From NCBI RefSeq assembly GCF_000014585.1, contig NC_008319.1, positions 248,001 to 312,000 of the forward strand: a stretch of 64,000 bases of DNA. The letters run 5' to 3'. Source of the stretch: Synechococcus sp. CC9311. GTDB lineage: Bacteria; Cyanobacteriota; Cyanobacteriia; PCC-6307; Cyanobiaceae. This document shows, piece by piece, positions 28,725-36,881 of this stretch. The notes beneath the pieces are model-generated. The model worked only from the letters and a program-made list of their open reading frames with translations. It had not been told where the DNA came from and searched no databases. How positions within the stretch are numbered: the stretch's first letter is position 1; every line of letters starts with the position of its first letter. Both the position numbers and the translations under genes were made by a program.

Positions 28725-29912
28725 ATGCCCAATCGCCGCCTCTGGTTGGTCAGCTTGCTGTTTGTGGCCTGGCTGATCTGGGCAGAGACCAGTTTTCAAT
28801 TTTATGACCATGCTCTTGGTCGTGATTTGCAGCTCTCGGCGAGTCGGATCTCCTTGATCGCCGGAAGTTTCCTGGTTCCTTATGGTTTGCTGCAGATTCC
28901 CGTCGGGCGTCTGCTGGACCAGGGCCGAGTTGATCGCTGGATCTGGATTGCCGCTTTGATGGCCTCCGGTTTCAGTCTGACTTTTGCGTTCAGTACGGAT
29001 CTTGTTGGGCTGATGCTCAGCCGTATGGGAACTGGAGTGGCCTGTGCTGTGGCCTTTCCTGCCTCTGCCTTGTTGGCACGTCGCGCCTTGCCGGAGAACA
29101 GATTTGCCTTGGCAATGGGCCTCACCGATAGCTTGCTGGGTTGGGGTGCCGTCTTTGCTGCTCTAATTCCGCTGGTTTTTCCGTGGACGGTTTGGCGCCA
29201 GTTGGTGCTCTTTCAAGCTCTTTTTCTGGCCGTGATGGTGGTGGTGCCCGTGATGGCCCTTGGTCGAGGTTTGCCATCCCCTGAGCCACATAGCCATGGA
29301 CGCTTGCCCACCTCTGTTTATTGGGATCGTGCTGGCGTTGGCAAGGTCATCAAGGCTTGCTTGATGTACGCATGGGGTGGTGGTTTTGTGTTTGGTTTGG
29401 CCCAGTATGGGTTGATTTCAGGATTGCGTGTTTGGGGCTCTGAGCGCACGCAGTGGATGTCCCTGACGATGTCGTTTGGGATCGGAATTGGGATGGTGTT
29501 GGCTGGTTGGATTGGTAGCCGCTCAAGCCGCCGCGGGCTCGTGTTGCTCATCGGTACCGGCATGAGTGTGTTGGCGTTGATCGCCTTGCTCCAGCTTCCC
29601 AATCAAGCGGGAGGCCTGTTGTTGCTGGCAGCATTTGGCCTCGGTCTTGGGCTTGGCTCCTCGGTCCTGGCGTTCCCCATTGCTGAAGATGCAGCACCTC
29701 CAGGCCAAACCGCCCTCACTATTGCCATCGTGAATACCACTGGCACCGTGACGGGCGGGGTGATGTCGATCGTGTCGGGGTTGATCCTTGAGGCCTCAGG
29801 GCCGGGTGAGCTCAGCCCGGTCCTTGTCGTTTATGGCCTCTTTGGCCTGTTTGGCGTAGCGGTTGCGGCTTGGATTCAGTTCGGCAGCGCGCCTGCTCAT
29901 TCAGCAGATTGA
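28725..29912 (+). CDS. major facilitator superfamily transporter
   Basis: This 395-residue polytopic membrane protein has about twelve hydrophobic helices. It shows the MFS loop-2-like motif PVGRLLDQGRVDRW between helices 2 and 3 and the matching IGSRSSRRGLVLLIG after helix 8. The N-terminus, MPNRRLWLVSLLFVAWLIWA, is the first helix. Substrate cannot be predicted from the sequence. It follows the SIMPL gene by 39 bases on the same strand, and its 3' end overlaps convergent BCCT transporter sequence by 16 bases. Confidence 0.88.
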   Translation: MPNRRLWLVSLLFVAWLIWAETSFQFYDHALGRDLQLSASRISLIAGSFLVPYGLLQIPVGRLLDQGRVDRWIWIAALMASGFSLTFAFSTDLVGLMLSRMGTGVACAVAFPASALLARRALPENRFALAMGLTDSLLGWGAVFAALIPLVFPWTVWRQLVLFQALFLAVMVVVPVMALGRGLPSPEPHSHGRLPTSVYWDRAGVGKVIKACLMYAWGGGFVFGLAQYGLISGLRVWGSERTQWMSLTMSFGIGIGMVLAGWIGSRSSRRGLVLLIGTGMSVLALIALLQLPNQAGGLLLLAAFGLGLGLGSSVLAFPIAEDAAPPGQTALTIAIVNTTGTVTGGVMSIVSGLILEASGPGELSPVLVVYGLFGLFGVAVAAWIQFGSAPAHSAD

Positions 29913-31453
29913 CCGCTGCGTTGCCATTCCTTGAAAGCGAGTCTTGGAGCGCTCCACAGCGTGAACAACACCAGTGGTGTGACGGGCACCGCTGTGATCA
30001 CGATGAAGGCTTGGAGGGCATCAATTGAGGTGCTGTCCCCTAAGCCCGTTCCGATTCTCAATAACACCAAGGTGAGGCTGCCGATCATCAAGGCCCAGAA
30101 CAACCTCAACCTCTGAGATGGCTCATTGCGTCCGCTCACCACCATGGCGGCGGCATAACTCATCGAATCGGCACTTGTGCACATGAATAGCACCACTAAC
30201 AGAAGCCCGATCGGGATGAGCAAGCCTGATAGGGGAAGGGCACTCAGGATCGCAAGCAAGGCGGCAGCAGCTCCGTTTTGCGCCAGTGCATCACTGATGC
30301 CTGACCCTGCGAGTTCCAGGTTCATTCCTGTTCCACCAAGCAAGGTGAACCAGAGATTGGTCACGATCGGGCAGAGGATGGCTACCGCGAGAACAAGTTC
30401 ACGGATGCTGCGGCCCCGGCTCACTCCCGCCGTGAACAGACCCATGAGTGGTGCATAGCCCAAAAACCAGCCCCAGTAGAAAACAGTCCAGCTGTTCAAC
30501 CAGGGTTCAGTGACGTCAGATCGCGGCATCAAGGCCATCTGAGGTAGATGCAGCAAGTAGGTCCAAAAACCGCTGAAAAAATGCTGGATCAGCCAGATTC
30601 CAGGACCGAGGATCAGCAACCCAGCTCCTAATACGAGCGTTAGCCAAACATTGAGTTCCGACAGCCACTTAATGCCTTTTTGGATTCCGCTCACGGTGGA
30701 TGTGGCAAAGACTGCAGTGAGCAGAACCACCACCAGGGACTGAAGTCCGGCACTATCGCTCAGCCATGGGAGTTGTCCTGCTGCATTGCTGAGTTGCAGC
30801 GACAGGAAACCCAGCGGGCCAACGGTGCCTGCGATGGCCGCAACAACCGAAAGGCCATCTGCAAGATCTCCAATCGGACCATTCACCCAACCCTTGGGAA
30901 GGATGTTGACCAGGAGCGTGCGAGGCCACAGCGGTTCGCCTCGTTGTTCCAAAATGGAAAAGGTAATCGTGGTGGTGGTGGCCACGAGCGCCCAGGCGAG
31001 AAAGCCCCAGTGCAGAAAGCTCACGGCTAGAGCAGGATCAACAGCTGCCGCTGTGCTTCCCACCACTCCCTCGAAGACAGGGGAGGGGGTTTGAAAGTGG
31101 TAGAGCGGCTCAGCTGCAGACCAGAACACACCGCCGCCAGCTAGCAGGGTGCAAATCAAGACAGCACACCAATCGAAAAATTTCAGACTGGGCTTCGCTG
31201 TTGCTCCCCCAAGCCGAAGTTTCCCGACCGGACTGATGGCAATGGCAAGGGCGATCAGGAACAGCAGCATCACCATCCATTGCCAGAGCCCCCCGAGCGC
31301 GTGGCTGACAATGGTTTTGCCGGTTTCCGTGAAGTGCTTCGCTAACGCCAGATCGATGGCGGAGACCAGCAGAAAAATCAGAAGCGGAATGGCACCAACC
31401 CAAAGGGGTGGTTGGCTCAAAGACGAGCGGACTGGGGTGGGGGATTCAGACAA
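29897..31453 (-). CDS. BCCT-family transporter (betaine/choline/carnitine type)
   Basis: This is a secondary transporter of about 518 residues. The BCCT signature is clear in SWTVFYWGWFLGYAPLMGLF followed by TAGVSRGRSIRELVLAV. About twelve hydrophobic helices are seen, including AIPLLIFLLVSAIDLALAK near the N-terminus and the GGVFWSAAEPLYHF segment near the ligand site. BCCT proteins carry quaternary ammonium compounds such as glycine betaine or related methylated solutes. The start is unclear: TTG 31453 lies 19 bases after the upstream gene's stop; the frame is open to 31564. It is the last gene of a four-gene cluster. Confidence 0.9.
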   Translation of the reverse strand: MSESPTPVRSSLSQPPLWVGAIPLLIFLLVSAIDLALAKHFTETGKTIVSHALGGLWQWMVMLLFLIALAIAISPVGKLRLGGATAKPSLKFFDWCAVLICTLLAGGGVFWSAAEPLYHFQTPSPVFEGVVGSTAAAVDPALAVSFLHWGFLAWALVATTTTITFSILEQRGEPLWPRTLLVNILPKGWVNGPIGDLADGLSVVAAIAGTVGPLGFLSLQLSNAAGQLPWLSDSAGLQSLVVVLLTAVFATSTVSGIQKGIKWLSELNVWLTLVLGAGLLILGPGIWLIQHFFSGFWTYLLHLPQMALMPRSDVTEPWLNSWTVFYWGWFLGYAPLMGLFTAGVSRGRSIRELVLAVAILCPIVTNLWFTLLGGTGMNLELAGSGISDALAQNGAAAALLAILSALPLSGLLIPIGLLLVVLFMCTSADSMSYAAAMVVSGRNEPSQRLRLFWALMIGSLTLVLLRIGTGLGDSTSIDALQAFIVITAVPVTPLVLFTLWSAPRLAFKEWQRSGQSAE

Positions 31454-31472
31454 AGGTCGTATCAGTAAAGAT

Positions 31473-32660
31473 TCAGGCGCGCACGGCGTCGCGTTGATGG
31501 CTCCAGCAGGAGATGTCTGCAGCGGGTTGATCGCCGCTGGCAAGACGGGCCAGAGAATCACCAATCAGCGGCGCAAATTTGAACGATTGGCCGGATCCAC
31601 CTGCAAACAGGCTCAGTTTGGGGGTGAGCCGATCCAACACGAAATTCACATCGCTGGTCATGGAGTATGGACTCATCACCGTTTCCACCCGCTCTTGTAC
31701 GCCGTCCAGTTCGTTAAACAAGAAGGTGTCCAGGAGCTCCAGGAGGCGGGCCGGCGCTTCGGTGCACATGGCGTTGGGTTCAGCGACGCGGAGCTCCTTG
31801 GGAGACCAGTCGATCCCGGCTTTGATGCGAGGACGCCCGTCAGCGGTGGTGCTGAGGGAGGGGAAGCCGTAATAAAGGCCTCCGTCATCGCCGCGCTCTT
31901 TTTGGAAGCAAAACCACTGGGGGTAGCGGCTGGCGAGAGCTGGATCCACGGTGTAATGGGCCCATAGCATCGGCCATATTTCCAGCTTTGGCGCAAGTCC
32001 TAATGGGGCCAGCAGAAGTTGACTCCAGATGCCGCATGCCACAACAACATGCCCTGCACTGATGTGATGACCGCCTTCGAGGGTGACGCCGCCGCCATCA
32101 GCATCGATGCTGCTAACAGGACTGTGTTCCTCGAGCTGGTGGCCTGCTGTACGAGCTGTGCGAACCCAATGGGCAATGACTTTGTCGCTGCGGACGGCAC
32201 CAGCTGTGGGTTCGAACAGTCCGGTGAAATCGGCCTTGGGTTTCAGCGGGAAGCGCTCTGCGATCTGAGCGGCACTCAGGGCTTCGTAGGGGATGCCCTG
32301 ATCATCCATCACTAAGCGAGCGCCGGGGATCGATCCTTCGATTGTCTCCTCATCCCAGCTTTCTCCGTAAAAAAGAAGTCCATGGGTGTCACGCAGAATT
32401 TCCCCTGCATGGGTCTCCTCTTCCCGCCAAAGGCGATTGGCTTCCTGCGCGAGACGGCAGAGCACTGGGTCGGAATACATCTCACGGAACATCCGGGTCT
32501 CGCCGAAGCTGCTGGCTCGCGCATGAGCCAGGGTTTTCCCTTCAAGAAGAATCACGTCGCTGATTCCTCGGCGTGCGAGCGATGCGGCACAGCTGAGGCC
32601 TGCCATGCCGCCTCCGATGATCACCACTGCTGCGCTGGCGGGGAGAGAGGTGGATGTCAT
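31473..32660 (-). CDS. FAD-dependent amine oxidase of the sarcosine/pipecolate oxidase (SolA) family
   Basis: This is a 395-residue flavoprotein. The N-terminal dinucleotide motif VVIIGGGMAGLSCAASLARRG is followed by SSFGETRMFREMYSD. The C-terminal GGSGQSFKFAPLIGD is typical of monomeric sarcosine oxidase, N-methyltryptophan oxidase and pipecolate oxidase, which oxidise secondary or tertiary amines of amino acids. The cysteine that holds flavin covalently in sarcosine oxidase appears to be a Ser here (VMSPYSMTSD), so FAD may be bound non-covalently. Its ATG overlaps the stop of the dehydrogenase gene. Confidence 0.85.
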   Translation of the reverse strand: MTSTSLPASAAVVIIGGGMAGLSCAASLARRGISDVILLEGKTLAHARASSFGETRMFREMYSDPVLCRLAQEANRLWREEETHAGEILRDTHGLLFYGESWDEETIEGSIPGARLVMDDQGIPYEALSAAQIAERFPLKPKADFTGLFEPTAGAVRSDKVIAHWVRTARTAGHQLEEHSPVSSIDADGGGVTLEGGHHISAGHVVVACGIWSQLLLAPLGLAPKLEIWPMLWAHYTVDPALASRYPQWFCFQKERGDDGGLYYGFPSLSTTADGRPRIKAGIDWSPKELRVAEPNAMCTEAPARLLELLDTFLFNELDGVQERVETVMSPYSMTSDVNFVLDRLTPKLSLFAGGSGQSFKFAPLIGDSLARLASGDQPAADISCWSHQRDAVRA

Positions 32661-33721
32661 GCGGCTATTCCGAAGCTGAGTCCTATGGGATCTTTACCGG
32701 TGTGGGCGGCAACTTCAACCAGAGCGTCACTGACAGTGAGGCCATCTCCTCGTTGTTTTAAGAAATCAGTAGCGCGCTGACGCACTTCATGGCGCACAAA
32801 GTCATACACCTGCTGAGGTGTGGCTTTACCCCAAGCCTCAGGCGAGAAGCGCTCGATCGAGTCGGCAATCACGGCGCCAGCATTCACGAGTGGATCGGGC
32901 AGGACGCGGATGCTGCGGCGTCGCAGATCATCGGCAATTTCGGGCTCTTGGAAAGGAGCATTAGCGGCTGGAACAATCGCTCTAACCTGAAAAGATCTTG
33001 CCATCTCTGGGTCGATCAAGCCTGAGATGGAGCAGGGCAAGAGGAGGTCGAGTTCCTGTTCCCACCACGCACTGCTGGGGGGGAGGGGTGTCGCTCCAGA
33101 AAGCCCTGCCCGCTTTGGATCCATATCAACAGTGAAGACGTCCCAGCCGTGTTGGATCAACGTTTTCGCCACCGTTCCACCCACGGCTCCACATCCGTGC
33201 ACCAGGGCCTTGCCTGGCTTCGCTTCCGTCAGAGATTGAGCGAGCACCGCCTCAACGGCACCCACTGTTCCAAAGGCAGTGGCAGCGCTTGCATCCACAG
33301 GGCTCCCGACGGCGGCTAAAACATGGGGCGTGAGCGACATCAATCGCTCCATGTCTTGCAGGCTTGTGTTGAGATCACAGCCGGTGATCATCGCGCCGTT
33401 CAAGGATTGGAGTAGCTCAGCGGTGACGTTGATCAACTCATCTTTGACAGCGCCGGGTTCCGCAGCCCTGGCAACAATTTTGCCGCCAGCAAAGCCCGTT
33501 CCATAGAGGTCGTGCTTGTGAGTCATCAGACTGGCCAACCGATGCCCGTCGGCGATGCAGGCTTCATCACTGGAGTAATTGAGCAGCCGCAGTCCACCGT
33601 TAGCGGGTTTGCCGGTATCGCTGCTTTCGGCTACGACAAACACCGATAGATGATCGGAGACATGTTGAGCCAACACCGACACCGCAGGGGGGCCGGCGGA
33701 TTGCAGAGAGGCCATGGTCAT
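32657..33721 (-). CDS. Glu/Leu/Phe/Val dehydrogenase-family protein
   Basis: This 354-residue protein resembles amino-acid dehydrogenases that interconvert amino and keto acids with NAD. The N-terminal domain has GGLRLLNYSSDEACIADGHR and LASLMTHKHDLYGTGFAGGK, matching the two lysines of the active site, then GCDLNTS. The second domain has KALVHGCGAVGGTVAKTL, the NAD-binding Gly pattern, and NAGAVIADSIE. The closest families are Leu/Phe/Trp dehydrogenases (the scytonemin enzyme ScyB is also in this group), so the substrate is uncertain. ATG 33721 shares a base with the upstream stop (TGATG), and its own stop overlaps the next gene's ATG. Confidence 0.84.
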   Translation of the reverse strand: MTMASLQSAGPPAVSVLAQHVSDHLSVFVVAESSDTGKPANGGLRLLNYSSDEACIADGHRLASLMTHKHDLYGTGFAGGKIVARAAEPGAVKDELINVTAELLQSLNGAMITGCDLNTSLQDMERLMSLTPHVLAAVGSPVDASAATAFGTVGAVEAVLAQSLTEAKPGKALVHGCGAVGGTVAKTLIQHGWDVFTVDMDPKRAGLSGATPLPPSSAWWEQELDLLLPCSISGLIDPEMARSFQVRAIVPAANAPFQEPEIADDLRRRSIRVLPDPLVNAGAVIADSIERFSPEAWGKATPQQVYDFVRHEVRQRATDFLKQRGDGLTVSDALVEVAAHTGKDPIGLSFGIAA

Positions 33722-34758
33722 CAGGCCACACGCTCCATGATTTGGTGATGCTCTACGTAATCGAGACTCCACTCCTCTGGAGAATCGGCGATGCGCTGCT
33801 TGAGGCGCTCGTACACGAGATCTGCGGTCTCATCACCAGCTACTGAGGCGAAACTGTGTCGGCTCCAGCTACGAATAGTCGCCATCAGTCCCTCGGCGAA
33901 AGCTGCGGTGTCAGCGTCTTCGTTCCAACGCTTGCGATAGGGGCAGGGAACGTGAACGGTGCGCTCGTCAACGAGCCTTAGACCATTGAGGTAGGCCGCT
34001 GAAGTCTTGTCCTTCAGTGGGGCCATGAACTCCTCCGGAGACTTGTAGAAGTTCAGGATCGTGCCCTTGCGGTAGATCTCTTCGCTGATTACCCCTTCAT
34101 CAGCGAGGCTGCGCCAGATCTGATGCAGCTGGTCGTGGACATTGCGCGTTACCCCGCCGTTGTGACCGAGGTAACGGCCCTCTTCGTCACGGGACAAATT
34201 CACGGTGAGGAGGCGGCCGCCTACGGCAAGCTCCACGCTGCGCAGCTCGAGGATGCTGGCCCAGTCCTTCATGGCTTGAGCGGTGAATCGCTCAAGGGCC
34301 TCTTTGTCGTCTGAGGCGAGCACGTGGGTGTGCGTGTTGAGTGGGCCAGGGGATTCACTCAACCAATGCATGGCTGTGGCTGAGAATCCGAAACTCACGG
34401 TTTCAGGGGCCACCAGTGGCTCATAAAAGCTGCGAGCACTCACCAGCACGGTGGGATTGGGGGGGCGCCCCAGCTGCTTGGCAATATTTTCGGCTAAAGC
34501 AACGTTGTCGTTACTTGGGAGGTCGTTGCCAATCAAGGTGAGATGGGCTTTGGGCTGGCGTTTGTGGAGCCGATCCAAGACCTGAGACCACAGCCCTACA
34601 GCGGTGCCGCCGTCGGCAGCGCCGTAATCCATCAGCACATGGCTGCAATCGTTCGTTAATTGTTCAACACAAGTCAGGGCCCAGTCCGAGGCGGCATCGA
34701 TGCAGAGGCGTGCGCCTTCGGTTTGCGCGCTGTAACCCGTGGTCATGGCGATGGCCAT
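33721..34758 (-). CDS. SABATH-like SAM-dependent methyltransferase
   Basis: This 345-residue protein resembles the plant-type SABATH family (salicylate, jasmonate, indole-acetate and caffeine methyltransferases). Seen are YSAQTEGARLCIDAASDWAL, the SAM site VLMDYGAADGGTAVGLWSQV, LIGNDLPSNDN and GFSATAMHWLSESPGPL, which line substrate and SAM pockets in that family. Substrates in SABATH enzymes are usually carboxyl groups, or ring nitrogens in the caffeine branch. ATG 34758 was chosen because GAGG precedes it; the frame is open to TTG 34776. It is the first gene of the cluster with the dehydrogenase, flavoprotein and BCCT transporter. Confidence 0.82.
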   Translation of the reverse strand: MAIAMTTGYSAQTEGARLCIDAASDWALTCVEQLTNDCSHVLMDYGAADGGTAVGLWSQVLDRLHKRQPKAHLTLIGNDLPSNDNVALAENIAKQLGRPPNPTVLVSARSFYEPLVAPETVSFGFSATAMHWLSESPGPLNTHTHVLASDDKEALERFTAQAMKDWASILELRSVELAVGGRLLTVNLSRDEEGRYLGHNGGVTRNVHDQLHQIWRSLADEGVISEEIYRKGTILNFYKSPEEFMAPLKDKTSAAYLNGLRLVDERTVHVPCPYRKRWNEDADTAAFAEGLMATIRSWSRHSFASVAGDETADLVYERLKQRIADSPEEWSLDYVEHHQIMERVA

Positions 34759-34800: not shown

Positions 34801-35421
34801 TTATGGAATTGGCGTCGCGCCCGCGTCTTGGCCTGGGTCGTTCTCGAGAAGCTTCTCCAGCTCTGGCTTTAGCAGGGCAAAGGCGCGACCTCGATGCCCG
34901 TGTTGTTTTTTGTGATCCTGCGTCATTTCAGCAAAGGTGAGTCCACTGTTTTTGACCTCAAACACGGGGTCGTACCCGAACCCTTGCGTCCCCCGGGCGC
35001 TGAAGGTGATCGAGCCTTCGCAGTACCCCTCAACTGCTGCAAGCACGCTGCCGTCAGGTGCTGCGATGCAAAGGGCCGCACTAAAGCGAGCCTGGCGGTC
35101 GGTGCGGTCTCCTAGCTCTTTGAGAAGACGTTCGATGCGTTCGGGGTCGGAGTTTGCATAGCGAGCGGAGTAGACCCCCGGAGCACCACCCAGTGCATCC
35201 ACGCTTAGGCCCGAATCATCGGCGAGTGCCCAATGGCCAGTGGCTTCCGCCACGGCCCTGGCCTTGAGCAATGCATTGTCGCGGAAGGTGATTCCGGTTT
35301 CTTCCACCTGGATTCCATCGGGTTGAGGATTCACTTGCAGAGGCAATTCTTGAAGCAGGTTCGAAAACTCTCGGATTTTGCCGGCGTTGCCACTGGCAAT
35401 GACCAGGACGCGGTTGGTCAT
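34801..35421 (-). CDS. rdgB: non-canonical purine NTP pyrophosphatase (RdgB/HAM1)
   Basis: This 206-residue enzyme hydrolyses dITP/XTP and so prevents incorporation of deaminated purines. The N-terminal VLVIASGNAGKIREFSNLL, then TGITFRDNALLKARAVA, ADDSGLSVDALGGAPGVYSA, GFGYDPVF and the C-terminal HGHRGRAFALLK fit the family signature. ATG 35421 overlaps the stop of the upstream phosphohexomutase gene (ATATGA), so the two are coupled. The frame is open further upstream but homology starts at MTNRVL. Confidence 0.94.
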   Translation of the reverse strand: MTNRVLVIASGNAGKIREFSNLLQELPLQVNPQPDGIQVEETGITFRDNALLKARAVAEATGHWALADDSGLSVDALGGAPGVYSARYANSDPERIERLLKELGDRTDRQARFSAALCIAAPDGSVLAAVEGYCEGSITFSARGTQGFGYDPVFEVKNSGLTFAEMTQDHKKQHGHRGRAFALLKPELEKLLENDPGQDAGATPIP

Positions 35422-36881
35422 ATGGCGGCTGCAAAGGTGCGGGCCCAGCTCAGAACCTCCTCGACTCGCGACGGGCTGGGGGCTTCGCAGTAAAGGCGTA
35501 GCAAGGGTTCTGTCCCAGAGAAGCGCAGCATTAGCCAATGGCTTGGGCCGAGCCTGAGTTTGACGCCGTCTGTGGTGACCACCTCGACCACAGGACTTCC
35601 AGCGACCTCCTGGGGAGGAGTGTCAGCCAGTAGAGCTTCCAGCCTGCGGCGCGAATCCATGTCGGCGAGGCGGAGATCGAGGCGGTCGTAATGGGCCTCG
35701 CCACCACAACGCTCTTGGATGGCTGTCATGCGCTCGCCAAGCGGTTGCTTCCCTTCCACCAACGCTTCGAGCACGAGCATGGCTGCAAATAGGGCGTCGC
35801 GTTCTGGTAGGTGCATGCCAAATCCCACGCCGCCGGACTCCTCGCCGCCGATCAGCACCTCTCCGGTCAACATTTCAGCTGCGATGTACTTAAAGCCCAC
35901 AGGCAGTTCAAGGACTTCCCGTCCCAGATCTTCCGCAACAAGACGCATGAGGTCGGAGCCGCTAACCGTTTTCACGACTGATCCAGGCAGAGATTTGGCA
36001 CGAGCTAAGTGATCGATCAGCAGTGGCATCAACTGCTGGGTGCTGCAGAACCCTCCGTTTTCATCCACGGCGGCAATGCGGTCGCCATCGCCATCAAAGA
36101 CCAGTCCAACGGCATTGCGGCCCGCAGCTTTTGAGGCTTTCACCGCAGCAATCAGTTCCCCCAGGTGAGGGGCGAGGGGTTCCGGCGCGCATCCGCCAAA
36201 GAGGGGATCTCGATTGGTGCGGATCTCGGTGATGAGATCCTTGGCATCGTCTCCCAGCAGCTCTTCCACGCAACCGGCTGCAGACCCATGCATGGGATCG
36301 ACGAACACGTGGAGGCCCATGGCCCTCAGTCCCACGGTCAGAGCCTGGAGGTCCAATTTGGTTCGCAATCCTGCGAGATGCTCTCCGCGACCATCAAAGC
36401 GTTCGCAACTGCCAGCCATAGGCACCGTGATGCCTCCAGCGGCCAGCCGTCGCTCTACCGCTGCAGTGAAGGTGCCCTCGACCGATCCACCAAAGGGACC
36501 TTTGATTTTGAGACCAAGCCATTCCGGAGGGTTATGGCTGGCGGTAATCACCAGTGCTCCAAGCACTTGGCGCTCCACCACCGCCCAGCTGCAGGCTGGG
36601 GTGGGAACGGCCGTATCGGTGAGAAGCGGTTCTAGGTCGCAGCCGCGGACGGCTGCCGCCACGACTTCGGCGAGCTCAGGGGCGAGGAAGCGGCGGTCAT
36701 AGCCGATCACCACGGTGCGGCTGTTTAAACCTTCAGGTGCCTGGTGGAGGAGCTCCTGGGCTGCTGCGACGGCAACAGGAAGCAATCGCTCCACGGTGAT
36801 ATCCACCCCCAAAATGCCTCGCCAACCATCCGTCCCAAATCGGATCGGGGAGGCATCCAGCGGGAGCGGGGAAGACACCAT
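35418..36881 (-). CDS. phosphoglucomutase/phosphomannomutase family enzyme
   Basis: This 487-residue alpha-D-phosphohexomutase has the four usual parts. RFGTDGWRGILG binds the substrate phosphate. The phosphoserine loop is TASHNPPEWLGLK. The metal loop is VFDGDGDRIAA, and GGEESGGVGFG is the sugar-binding loop. The C-terminal domain has LMLRFSGTEPLLRLYCEA. It interconverts hexose-1- and hexose-6-phosphates, feeding glycogen and polysaccharide synthesis; whether glucose or mannose (or both) is preferred is not clear. ATG 36881 begins MVSSPLPLD; the frame extends upstream to 36899. Confidence 0.93.
   Translation of the reverse strand: MVSSPLPLDASPIRFGTDGWRGILGVDITVERLLPVAVAAAQELLHQAPEGLNSRTVVIGYDRRFLAPELAEVVAAAVRGCDLEPLLTDTAVPTPACSWAVVERQVLGALVITASHNPPEWLGLKIKGPFGGSVEGTFTAAVERRLAAGGITVPMAGSCERFDGRGEHLAGLRTKLDLQALTVGLRAMGLHVFVDPMHGSAAGCVEELLGDDAKDLITEIRTNRDPLFGGCAPEPLAPHLGELIAAVKASKAAGRNAVGLVFDGDGDRIAAVDENGGFCSTQQLMPLLIDHLARAKSLPGSVVKTVSGSDLMRLVAEDLGREVLELPVGFKYIAAEMLTGEVLIGGEESGGVGFGMHLPERDALFAAMLVLEALVEGKQPLGERMTAIQERCGGEAHYDRLDLRLADMDSRRRLEALLADTPPQEVAGSPVVEVVTTDGVKLRLGPSHWLMLRFSGTEPLLRLYCEAPSPSRVEEVLSWARTFAAAI

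Follow-up and report, generated by a model that had tools for sequence, protein, structure and literature searches.

What would a methyltransferase, an amino-acid dehydrogenase, a flavoprotein and a betaine-type transporter make or handle together when their genes are packed head to tail in a Synechococcus genome? The four genes occupy positions 29897-34758, all on the minus strand, of the window, i.e. the whole 64,000-nucleotide stretch of Synechococcus sp. CC9311 DNA analysed here (Table 1). An open reading frame check confirmed the coordinates and junctions of this four-gene cluster as given in the sequence-only reading: the methyltransferase and dehydrogenase genes overlap in TGATG, the stop codon of the dehydrogenase gene overlaps the start codon of the flavoprotein gene in ATGA, and 19 bases separate the flavoprotein gene from the BCCT gene.

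Table 1. Genes of the four-gene block and its upstream neighbours, with positions in the window
Feature	Positions	Strand	Remarks
SABATH (Methyltransf_7) SAM-dependent methyltransferase	33721-34758	minus	345 aa
ELFV NAD-linked amino-acid dehydrogenase	32657-33721	minus	354 aa; ATG inside TGATG
NikD-like flavoprotein, sarcosine-oxidase family	31473-32660	minus	395 aa
BCCT-family betaine-type transporter	29897-31453	minus	518 aa, TTG start
Ham1-type NTP pyrophosphatase	34801-35421	minus	conserved upstream neighbour of block
Phosphoglucosamine-mutase-like protein	35418-36869	minus	conserved upstream neighbour of block

Of 151 Cyanobiaceae genomes, an identical set of 19 carries the genes for the methyltransferase, the flavoprotein and the BCCT protein, and the dehydrogenase gene was found in those 19 carriers plus one genome (G030) with neither a flavoprotein nor a methyltransferase gene near the orphan dehydrogenase gene. 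As all 19 carriers keep the four genes in one order, the block is not a chance arrangement. The methyltransferase/dehydrogenase overlap was conserved in carriers as -1 or -4, except for a few genomes of genus g1 with a spacing of +5 that depends on start choice, and the dehydrogenase/flavoprotein overlap was -4 throughout, one frameshifted copy excepted. In genome G414, the methyltransferase gene of the block carries a frameshift. In the carrier genus, two nearly complete genomes gave no match at the DNA level to the block, whole or in part. In the block-free genome G419, the site is bordered by Ham1 and a carotenoid-oxygenase-like gene, which enclose two unrelated genes, and the Ham1/phosphoglucosamine-mutase-like neighbours are kept despite the missing block. 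These neighbours, located beside the block in 17 of the 19 carrier genomes, are an anchor of the site and probably lie outside the pathway. The same gene order was seen in the named loci with sufficient contig, including those of WH7803 and RCC307. The scan of named strains used two narrow peptide patterns, so that strains missing from its list, such as WH8102, cannot be taken to lack the block. Strain WH8102 has a predicted operon, SYNW0229-0233, whose first gene is of the BetT type (PMC2874817); its size matches that of the block plus Ham1, a match resting on the gene numbers in PMC2874817, not on sequence. The four genes form a single block that is conserved and inherited together. Co-conservation across marine Synechococcus genomes had been suggested as a check on the idea that they form a compact pathway for a methylated solute derived from an amino acid, and this idea is now well supported by strict co-occurrence, co-linearity and loss as a unit.

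We consider it quite likely that the block makes homarine (N-methylpicolinate), by way of L-lysine, piperideine-2-carboxylate (P2C) and picolinate, and handles it at the membrane. The dehydrogenase would catalyse NAD+-linked oxidation of the alpha-amino group of L-lysine, and the resulting 2-oxo-6-aminohexanoate would close spontaneously into P2C. By analogy with NikD, the flavoprotein may then oxidise P2C by four electrons, presumably using O2, to the aromatic picolinate, and SAM-dependent methylation of the picolinate ring nitrogen by the SABATH enzyme would yield the zwitterion homarine. The BCCT protein could act in uptake or retention of homarine as a compatible solute, either direction being possible. 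An operon composed specifically of an ELFV lysine 2-dehydrogenase, a non-covalent, aromatising oxidase of the NikD type, a picolinate N-methyltransferase of the SABATH family and a BCCT transporter specific for homarine appears fairly probable; this lysine-based route would differ from the quinolinate route proposed for homarine. Homarine has been measured at up to 18 mM after correction in Synechococcus WH8102 and at about 0.2 mM in WH7803 (PMC8269262, PMC10134881). Both strains are covered, by the block itself in WH7803 and by the predicted operon counterpart in WH8102. Counting against the model, WH7803 carries the whole block, yet its homarine production is about 90-fold lower than that of WH8102. 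Diatoms and Emiliania are also homarine producers, which likewise counts against it.

The flavoprotein matched PF01266 (DAO, 157 bits), and its top PDB match by sequence was NikD (E = 1.7e-37; 7.2e-40 with a profile), which also ranked first by fold (model pLDDT 74). The NikD residues E101, D276, R53, Y258 and K358, whose roles in the active site we assume from the NikD papers, correspond to E108, D284, R59, Y264 and K361 of the flavoprotein, all invariant in 15 orthologues. NikD and the flavoprotein have in common E101, D276 and an insertion around E101, all of which ten SolA/MSOX-type proteins lack; among three NikD-type proteins compared, D276 was present in 3/3 and E101 in 2/3. The flavoprotein groups with NikD, not with SolA/MSOX, in a tree where its join to NikD lies between long branches, a point against the homarine model. 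The SolA/pipecolate-oxidase-like label of the sequence-only reading was rejected because NikD ranks first by sequence and fold and the catalytic Cys/His/His pattern of SolA is absent. Homarine, named there as a speculative product, is now the leading candidate; the suggested route via pipecolate oxidation is replaced by lysine and a NikD-like oxidase, i.e. by lysine to P2C to picolinate, because the flavoprotein is NikD-like. The FAD-linking Cys321 and the Trp355 beside the flavin in NikD are missing from all flavoprotein orthologues, which have S330 and Q358 instead, and this counts against the homarine model.

The dehydrogenase was searched as the fragment 32657-33712 (351 aa), which its residue numbers follow. 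It scored above cut-off for both PF00208 and PF02812 (ELFV), but far under every NCBIfam equivalog cut-off, the nearest named model being ScyB (95 bits; cut-off 600). The catalytic Lys/Lys/Asp are K66, K78 and D113, all invariant, so that both active-site lysines noticed earlier are indeed kept. At the positions of L40 and V294 in LeuDH, which we take to line the side-chain pocket, the dehydrogenase has invariant N38 and D284, where Leu/Met and Val stand in five solved dehydrogenases of the Leu/Trp type; the hydrophobic pocket of the Leu/Phe/Trp dehydrogenase subgroup is thus absent. The Asn/Asp pocket would suit a cationic side chain such as that of lysine, and we propose that the enzyme is an L-lysine 2-dehydrogenase giving P2C. 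On these pocket residues, an aromatic amino-acid dehydrogenase was rejected, and they bear on the other product named earlier, an ester derived from an aromatic amino acid, for example the methyl ester of an indole or phenyl acid. Plant SABATH enzymes methylate indole-acetate and salicylate, and the dehydrogenase has a low-scoring resemblance to ScyB/TrpDH, both in keeping with an ester; however, the pocket is polar, acidic and invariant, the flavoprotein groups with NikD and not with N-methyltryptophan oxidase, and a betaine transporter would fit oddly, so that such a product is now very improbable.

The methyltransferase matched PF03492 (SABATH, Methyltransf_7) with 84.1 bits against a curated cut-off of 29.8, and W132 of its HWLS motif is invariant. 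Its fold model (pLDDT 60) was too poor and was left out of the analysis. Among solved structures, its nearest relatives are a fatty acid O-methyltransferase and the plant salicylate, geniposidate and IpCS3 SABATH enzymes, and the nearest other bacterial member found is a Rhizobium plasmid protein with 33% identity. A SABATH and DAO gene pair on the plasmid of Rhizobium CB3171 resembled another copy of the system at first sight; since hardly any of its oxidase can be aligned with the flavoprotein, the pair is at most an analogy. We propose that the methyltransferase is a picolinate N-methyltransferase. Solved SABATH enzymes are mostly O-methyltransferases, and sequence does not prove N-methylation; both points count against the homarine model. 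The predominance of carboxyl methyltransferases among solved SABATH structures would also suit another small methylated product of lysine or a cyclic amino acid (methyl picolinate, an N-methylated piperideine or pipecolate betaine, or an ornithine-derived pyrrole acid), as would the loss of the covalent FAD link and Trp355 of NikD and an acidic dehydrogenase pocket that also suits ornithine. Such a product is nevertheless unlikely: every copy of the block includes a BCCT gene, which agrees with a zwitterionic betaine and not with a neutral ester, the E101 and D276 equivalents are kept in the flavoprotein, and homarine, whose structure fits, is known as an abundant solute of Synechococcus.

The BCCT protein carries a full-length domain (PF02028, 418.6 bits over residues 18-504), and each carrier genome has exactly one full-length BCCT match. 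Read against TmaT, the W-W-x-x-W of TM8 is W329-F330-x-x-Y333 and the aromatic-box Tyr of TM4 is V157, all invariant. By the aromatic-box positions of BetP, the complete aromatic (Trp) box of the glycine-betaine BCCT subgroup is absent, with F330, Y333 and V157 replacing Trp, Trp and Tyr. We propose, from sequence, that this protein is a homarine transporter. A BCCT protein could also import a betaine for breakdown, with the flavoprotein demethylating it like sarcosine oxidase. Another cyanobacterium (G311, L136) has adjacent BCCT, SolA-type oxidase and Rieske oxygenase genes that resemble a set for betaine breakdown, and a role in DMSP import has been proposed for BCCT genes of Synechococcus (PMC13310141). 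But the block lacks a Rieske demethylase and has a methyltransferase and an alpha-amino-acid dehydrogenase in its place, and the position of MSOX His269 is Asp as in NikD, unlike the SolA protein of G311. Breakdown, weighed on account of the Rieske-BCCT-SolA locus of G311, was rejected as the main reading and is improbable.

According to the cited literature, homarine belongs to the abundant polar metabolites of ocean particles and turns over daily, and its synthesis genes are described there as unknown. It has no characterised synthesis pathway (PMC8269262, PMC10134881; the 2026 catabolism paper lies outside this statement) and is missing from KEGG, so it is invisible to gene-based surveys. 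A 2026 report in Nature Microbiology, cited in PMC13390433, described a catabolic route. If the homarine model is true, the block, as a synthesis operon, would complete the homarine cycle, and as a marker it would let metagenomes and metatranscriptomes show homarine makers. Homarine would be predicted in most marine Synechococcus and not in block-free Cyanobiaceae genomes, an antibiotic-precursor module (lysine to picolinate) would be joined to osmolyte biology, and three enzyme activities would be new to their families. What is new here is that the chemistry of the pathway may be readable from its proteins, through the NikD-like oxidase and the Asn/Asp dehydrogenase pocket.

Each protein shares its framework with a known family and departs from it in defined places. 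With Leu/Phe/Trp dehydrogenases including ScyB, the dehydrogenase has the catalytic lysines and aspartate in common and, as in ELFV dehydrogenases, a Rossmann domain with Asp at the NAD-type position, whereas their Leu/Met and Val pocket is Asn and Asp here. The methyltransferase has the HWLS and DLPSND motifs in common with SABATH enzymes (fatty acid O-methyltransferase, salicylate carboxyl methyltransferase and caffeine-type N-methyltransferases), with an identity of only about 1/4 to 1/3 to the other bacterial members compared. The transporter shares a full-length BCCT match with BetP, BetT and TmaT, with the aromatic box altered in TM8 and TM4. The flavoprotein has the fold of the MSOX/SolA/pipecolate oxidase family and keeps the FKF lysine, and its K280 aligns with MSOX K265. 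Unlike that family, it has S330 in place of the covalent-FAD Cys, D284 in place of MSOX His269, SGQxFKF (Gln replacing His) in place of the SGHGFKF motif of SolA/MSOX, and an insertion with Glu around residue 108. Of NikD it keeps R53, E101, Y258, D276 and K358, and it probably shares a P2C-type substrate with NikD/CrmD. In nikkomycin and caerulomycin biosynthesis, lysine to P2C followed by NikD/CrmD oxidation is an established module started by an aminotransferase (PMC11446937). The role of the lysine 2-aminotransferase NikC/CrmC would be taken here by the ELFV dehydrogenase, and the picolinate that enters the antibiotic in those pathways would be N-methylated here, with a BCCT transporter attached.

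The four minus-strand genes are best read as an operon for homarine (N-methylpicolinate), which would be made from lysine through piperideine-2-carboxylate (P2C) and picolinate; we consider this reading probable. In the source genome, a single contig of 2,606,748 bases, the genes were recovered where the sequence-only reading had placed them (29897-34758), and their junctions in gene order were likewise as claimed: TGATG, ATGA and a 19-base gap.

Genes of the minus-strand block, in transcript order
Gene	Window position	Strand	Remark
SABATH methyltransferase	33721-34758	-	first gene at transcript 5' end; over Pfam cut-off
ELFV-type dehydrogenase	32657-33721	-	second gene; over Pfam cut-off
DAO-family flavoprotein	31473-32660	-	third gene; over Pfam cut-off
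BCCT transporter	29897-31453	-	fourth gene; over Pfam cut-off

Among 151 Cyanobiaceae genomes, strong flavoprotein matches, strong methyltransferase matches and BCCT each fell in the identical set of 19, a count that does not represent independent trials because the sampled genomes are related; the dehydrogenase occurred in these 19 and, as an orphan copy, in genome G030. The co-conservation that the sequence-only reading had proposed to look for was found, with the four genes together and in the same order in 19/19 carriers. The four-base dehydrogenase-flavoprotein overlap was retained in every carrier except G112, in which the flavoprotein gene (L135:1966-3145) is frameshifted near codon 50 and the remaining three genes are apparently intact. 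Ham1 and GlmM were the upstream neighbours in 17 carriers and were not found beside the block in two others (loci L032 and L037), indicating that the block holds together away from its usual site. The methyltransferase was present in 28 of 34 genomes of one carrier genus, and a DNA search of two near-complete genomes lacking it (G419 and G437) with the whole block matched no part of it. The G419 site has Ham1 on one side, a carotenoid-oxygenase-like gene on the other, and two unrelated genes in between. No orthologue was found in the remainder of the 292-genome phylum sample. The case for one unit rests more strongly on losses of the block as a whole and on its changed sites than on the genome counts.

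The catalytic lysines of the dehydrogenase, already recognized from the sequence alone, and the catalytic aspartate were invariant across orthologues. Also invariant were Asn38 and Asp284, at the equivalents of LeuDH L40 and V294, which we take from LeuDH/GluDH structures to be side-chain pocket positions. In five solved leucine-/tryptophan-type dehydrogenases the first of these positions is Leu or Met and the second is Val. An acid at the pocket end (Asp284) suits a positively charged side chain. The enzyme would thus oxidize lysine to a product that would close to P2C, the substrate of the nikkomycin-pathway oxidase NikD, and this step would join the dehydrogenase to the flavoprotein. The G030 orphan (L041:7549-8580), about 60% identical and without partner genes, carries this Asn/Asp pair in its pocket as well and may share the substrate.

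The operon methyltransferase (METHYLTRANSFERASE) is a divergent SABATH protein, and its sequence does not tell which of the family's targets, carboxylates or ring nitrogens, it methylates. The aromatic box of the BCCT protein is altered, so that it may carry something other than glycine betaine. The constant presence of a betaine transporter in the operon favours N-methylation, which would give a zwitterion. CC9311 has a second SABATH gene (L043:7059-8150, minus strand; G000:C1 around 1325064-1326110; 124 bits), adjoining acyltransferase, TPR protein and two SPFH protein genes; its product is 22% identical to the operon enzyme and resembles the SABATH protein of genome G102. Another, 33% identical to the operon enzyme, is encoded on a Rhizobium sp. 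CB3171 plasmid (L107:9944-12339), directly 5' of an unrelated DAO oxidase gene and near a B12-binding radical-SAM gene, with transposases around. Genome G025 carries a fragmented second BCCT gene (G025:C14:3207-4996) and a complete block elsewhere. A gene cluster in cyanobacterium G311 (L136:2223-7191) that encodes a Rieske oxygenase, a BCCT protein and a SolA-type oxidase is likely a betaine-breakdown set.

A scan of named genomes yielded 32 loci, every one from marine Synechococcus or from uncultured relatives, with WH7803 and RCC307 among them, and wherever the contig was long enough, all four genes were present in order. The scan did not recover WH8102, but in that strain an operon SYNW0229-0233 beginning with a BetT-type transporter gene was predicted in 2010 (PMC2874817). 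From the gene numbers, we infer that these are BCCT, flavoprotein, dehydrogenase, methyltransferase and Ham1, the match to the block resting on the five genes and the leading BCCT-type gene. Homarine has been measured at up to 18 mM in WH8102 and about 0.2 mM in WH7803, both values with the published correction applied, with no pathway characterised and quinolinate decarboxylation mentioned as the presumed source (PMC8269262, PMC10134881). In the library of papers searched, which does not include subscription papers and preprints, we found no description of homarine synthesis genes, so earlier publication is possible. Homarine, a speculative product in the sequence-only reading, is kept, with the route now running from lysine via P2C. 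In a 2,234,828-bp genome, the methyltransferase gene (L134:10201-11231) has a frameshift at about codon 110 that splits it in two, either a natural mutation or a sequencing error. The question of homarine synthesis is now directly testable, natural mutants included, namely this frameshifted locus and the block-free G419.

The flavoprotein had been labelled SolA/pipecolate-oxidase-like; it is of the sarcosine-oxidase type, but NikD, which converts P2C to picolinate, was its top solved relative in the single-sequence search (E 1.7e-37), the profile search (7.2e-40) and the fold comparison. The Synechococcus proteins were aligned with NikD, two more NikD-type proteins and ten SolA/MSOX-type proteins. 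They share with NikD an insertion holding E101, and D276 in place of the MSOX histidine; D276 was present in 3/3 and E101 in 2/3 NikD-type proteins, whereas the SolA/MSOX-type set lacked both acids. In the tree, they joined the NikD branch with support of 98/95, subject to a long-branch caveat. Also retained is the lysine corresponding to MSOX K265, an oxygen-activating residue. However, the FAD-linking cysteine of NikD is replaced by Ser and its Trp355 by Gln, and the flavoprotein is therefore NikD-like rather than NikD.
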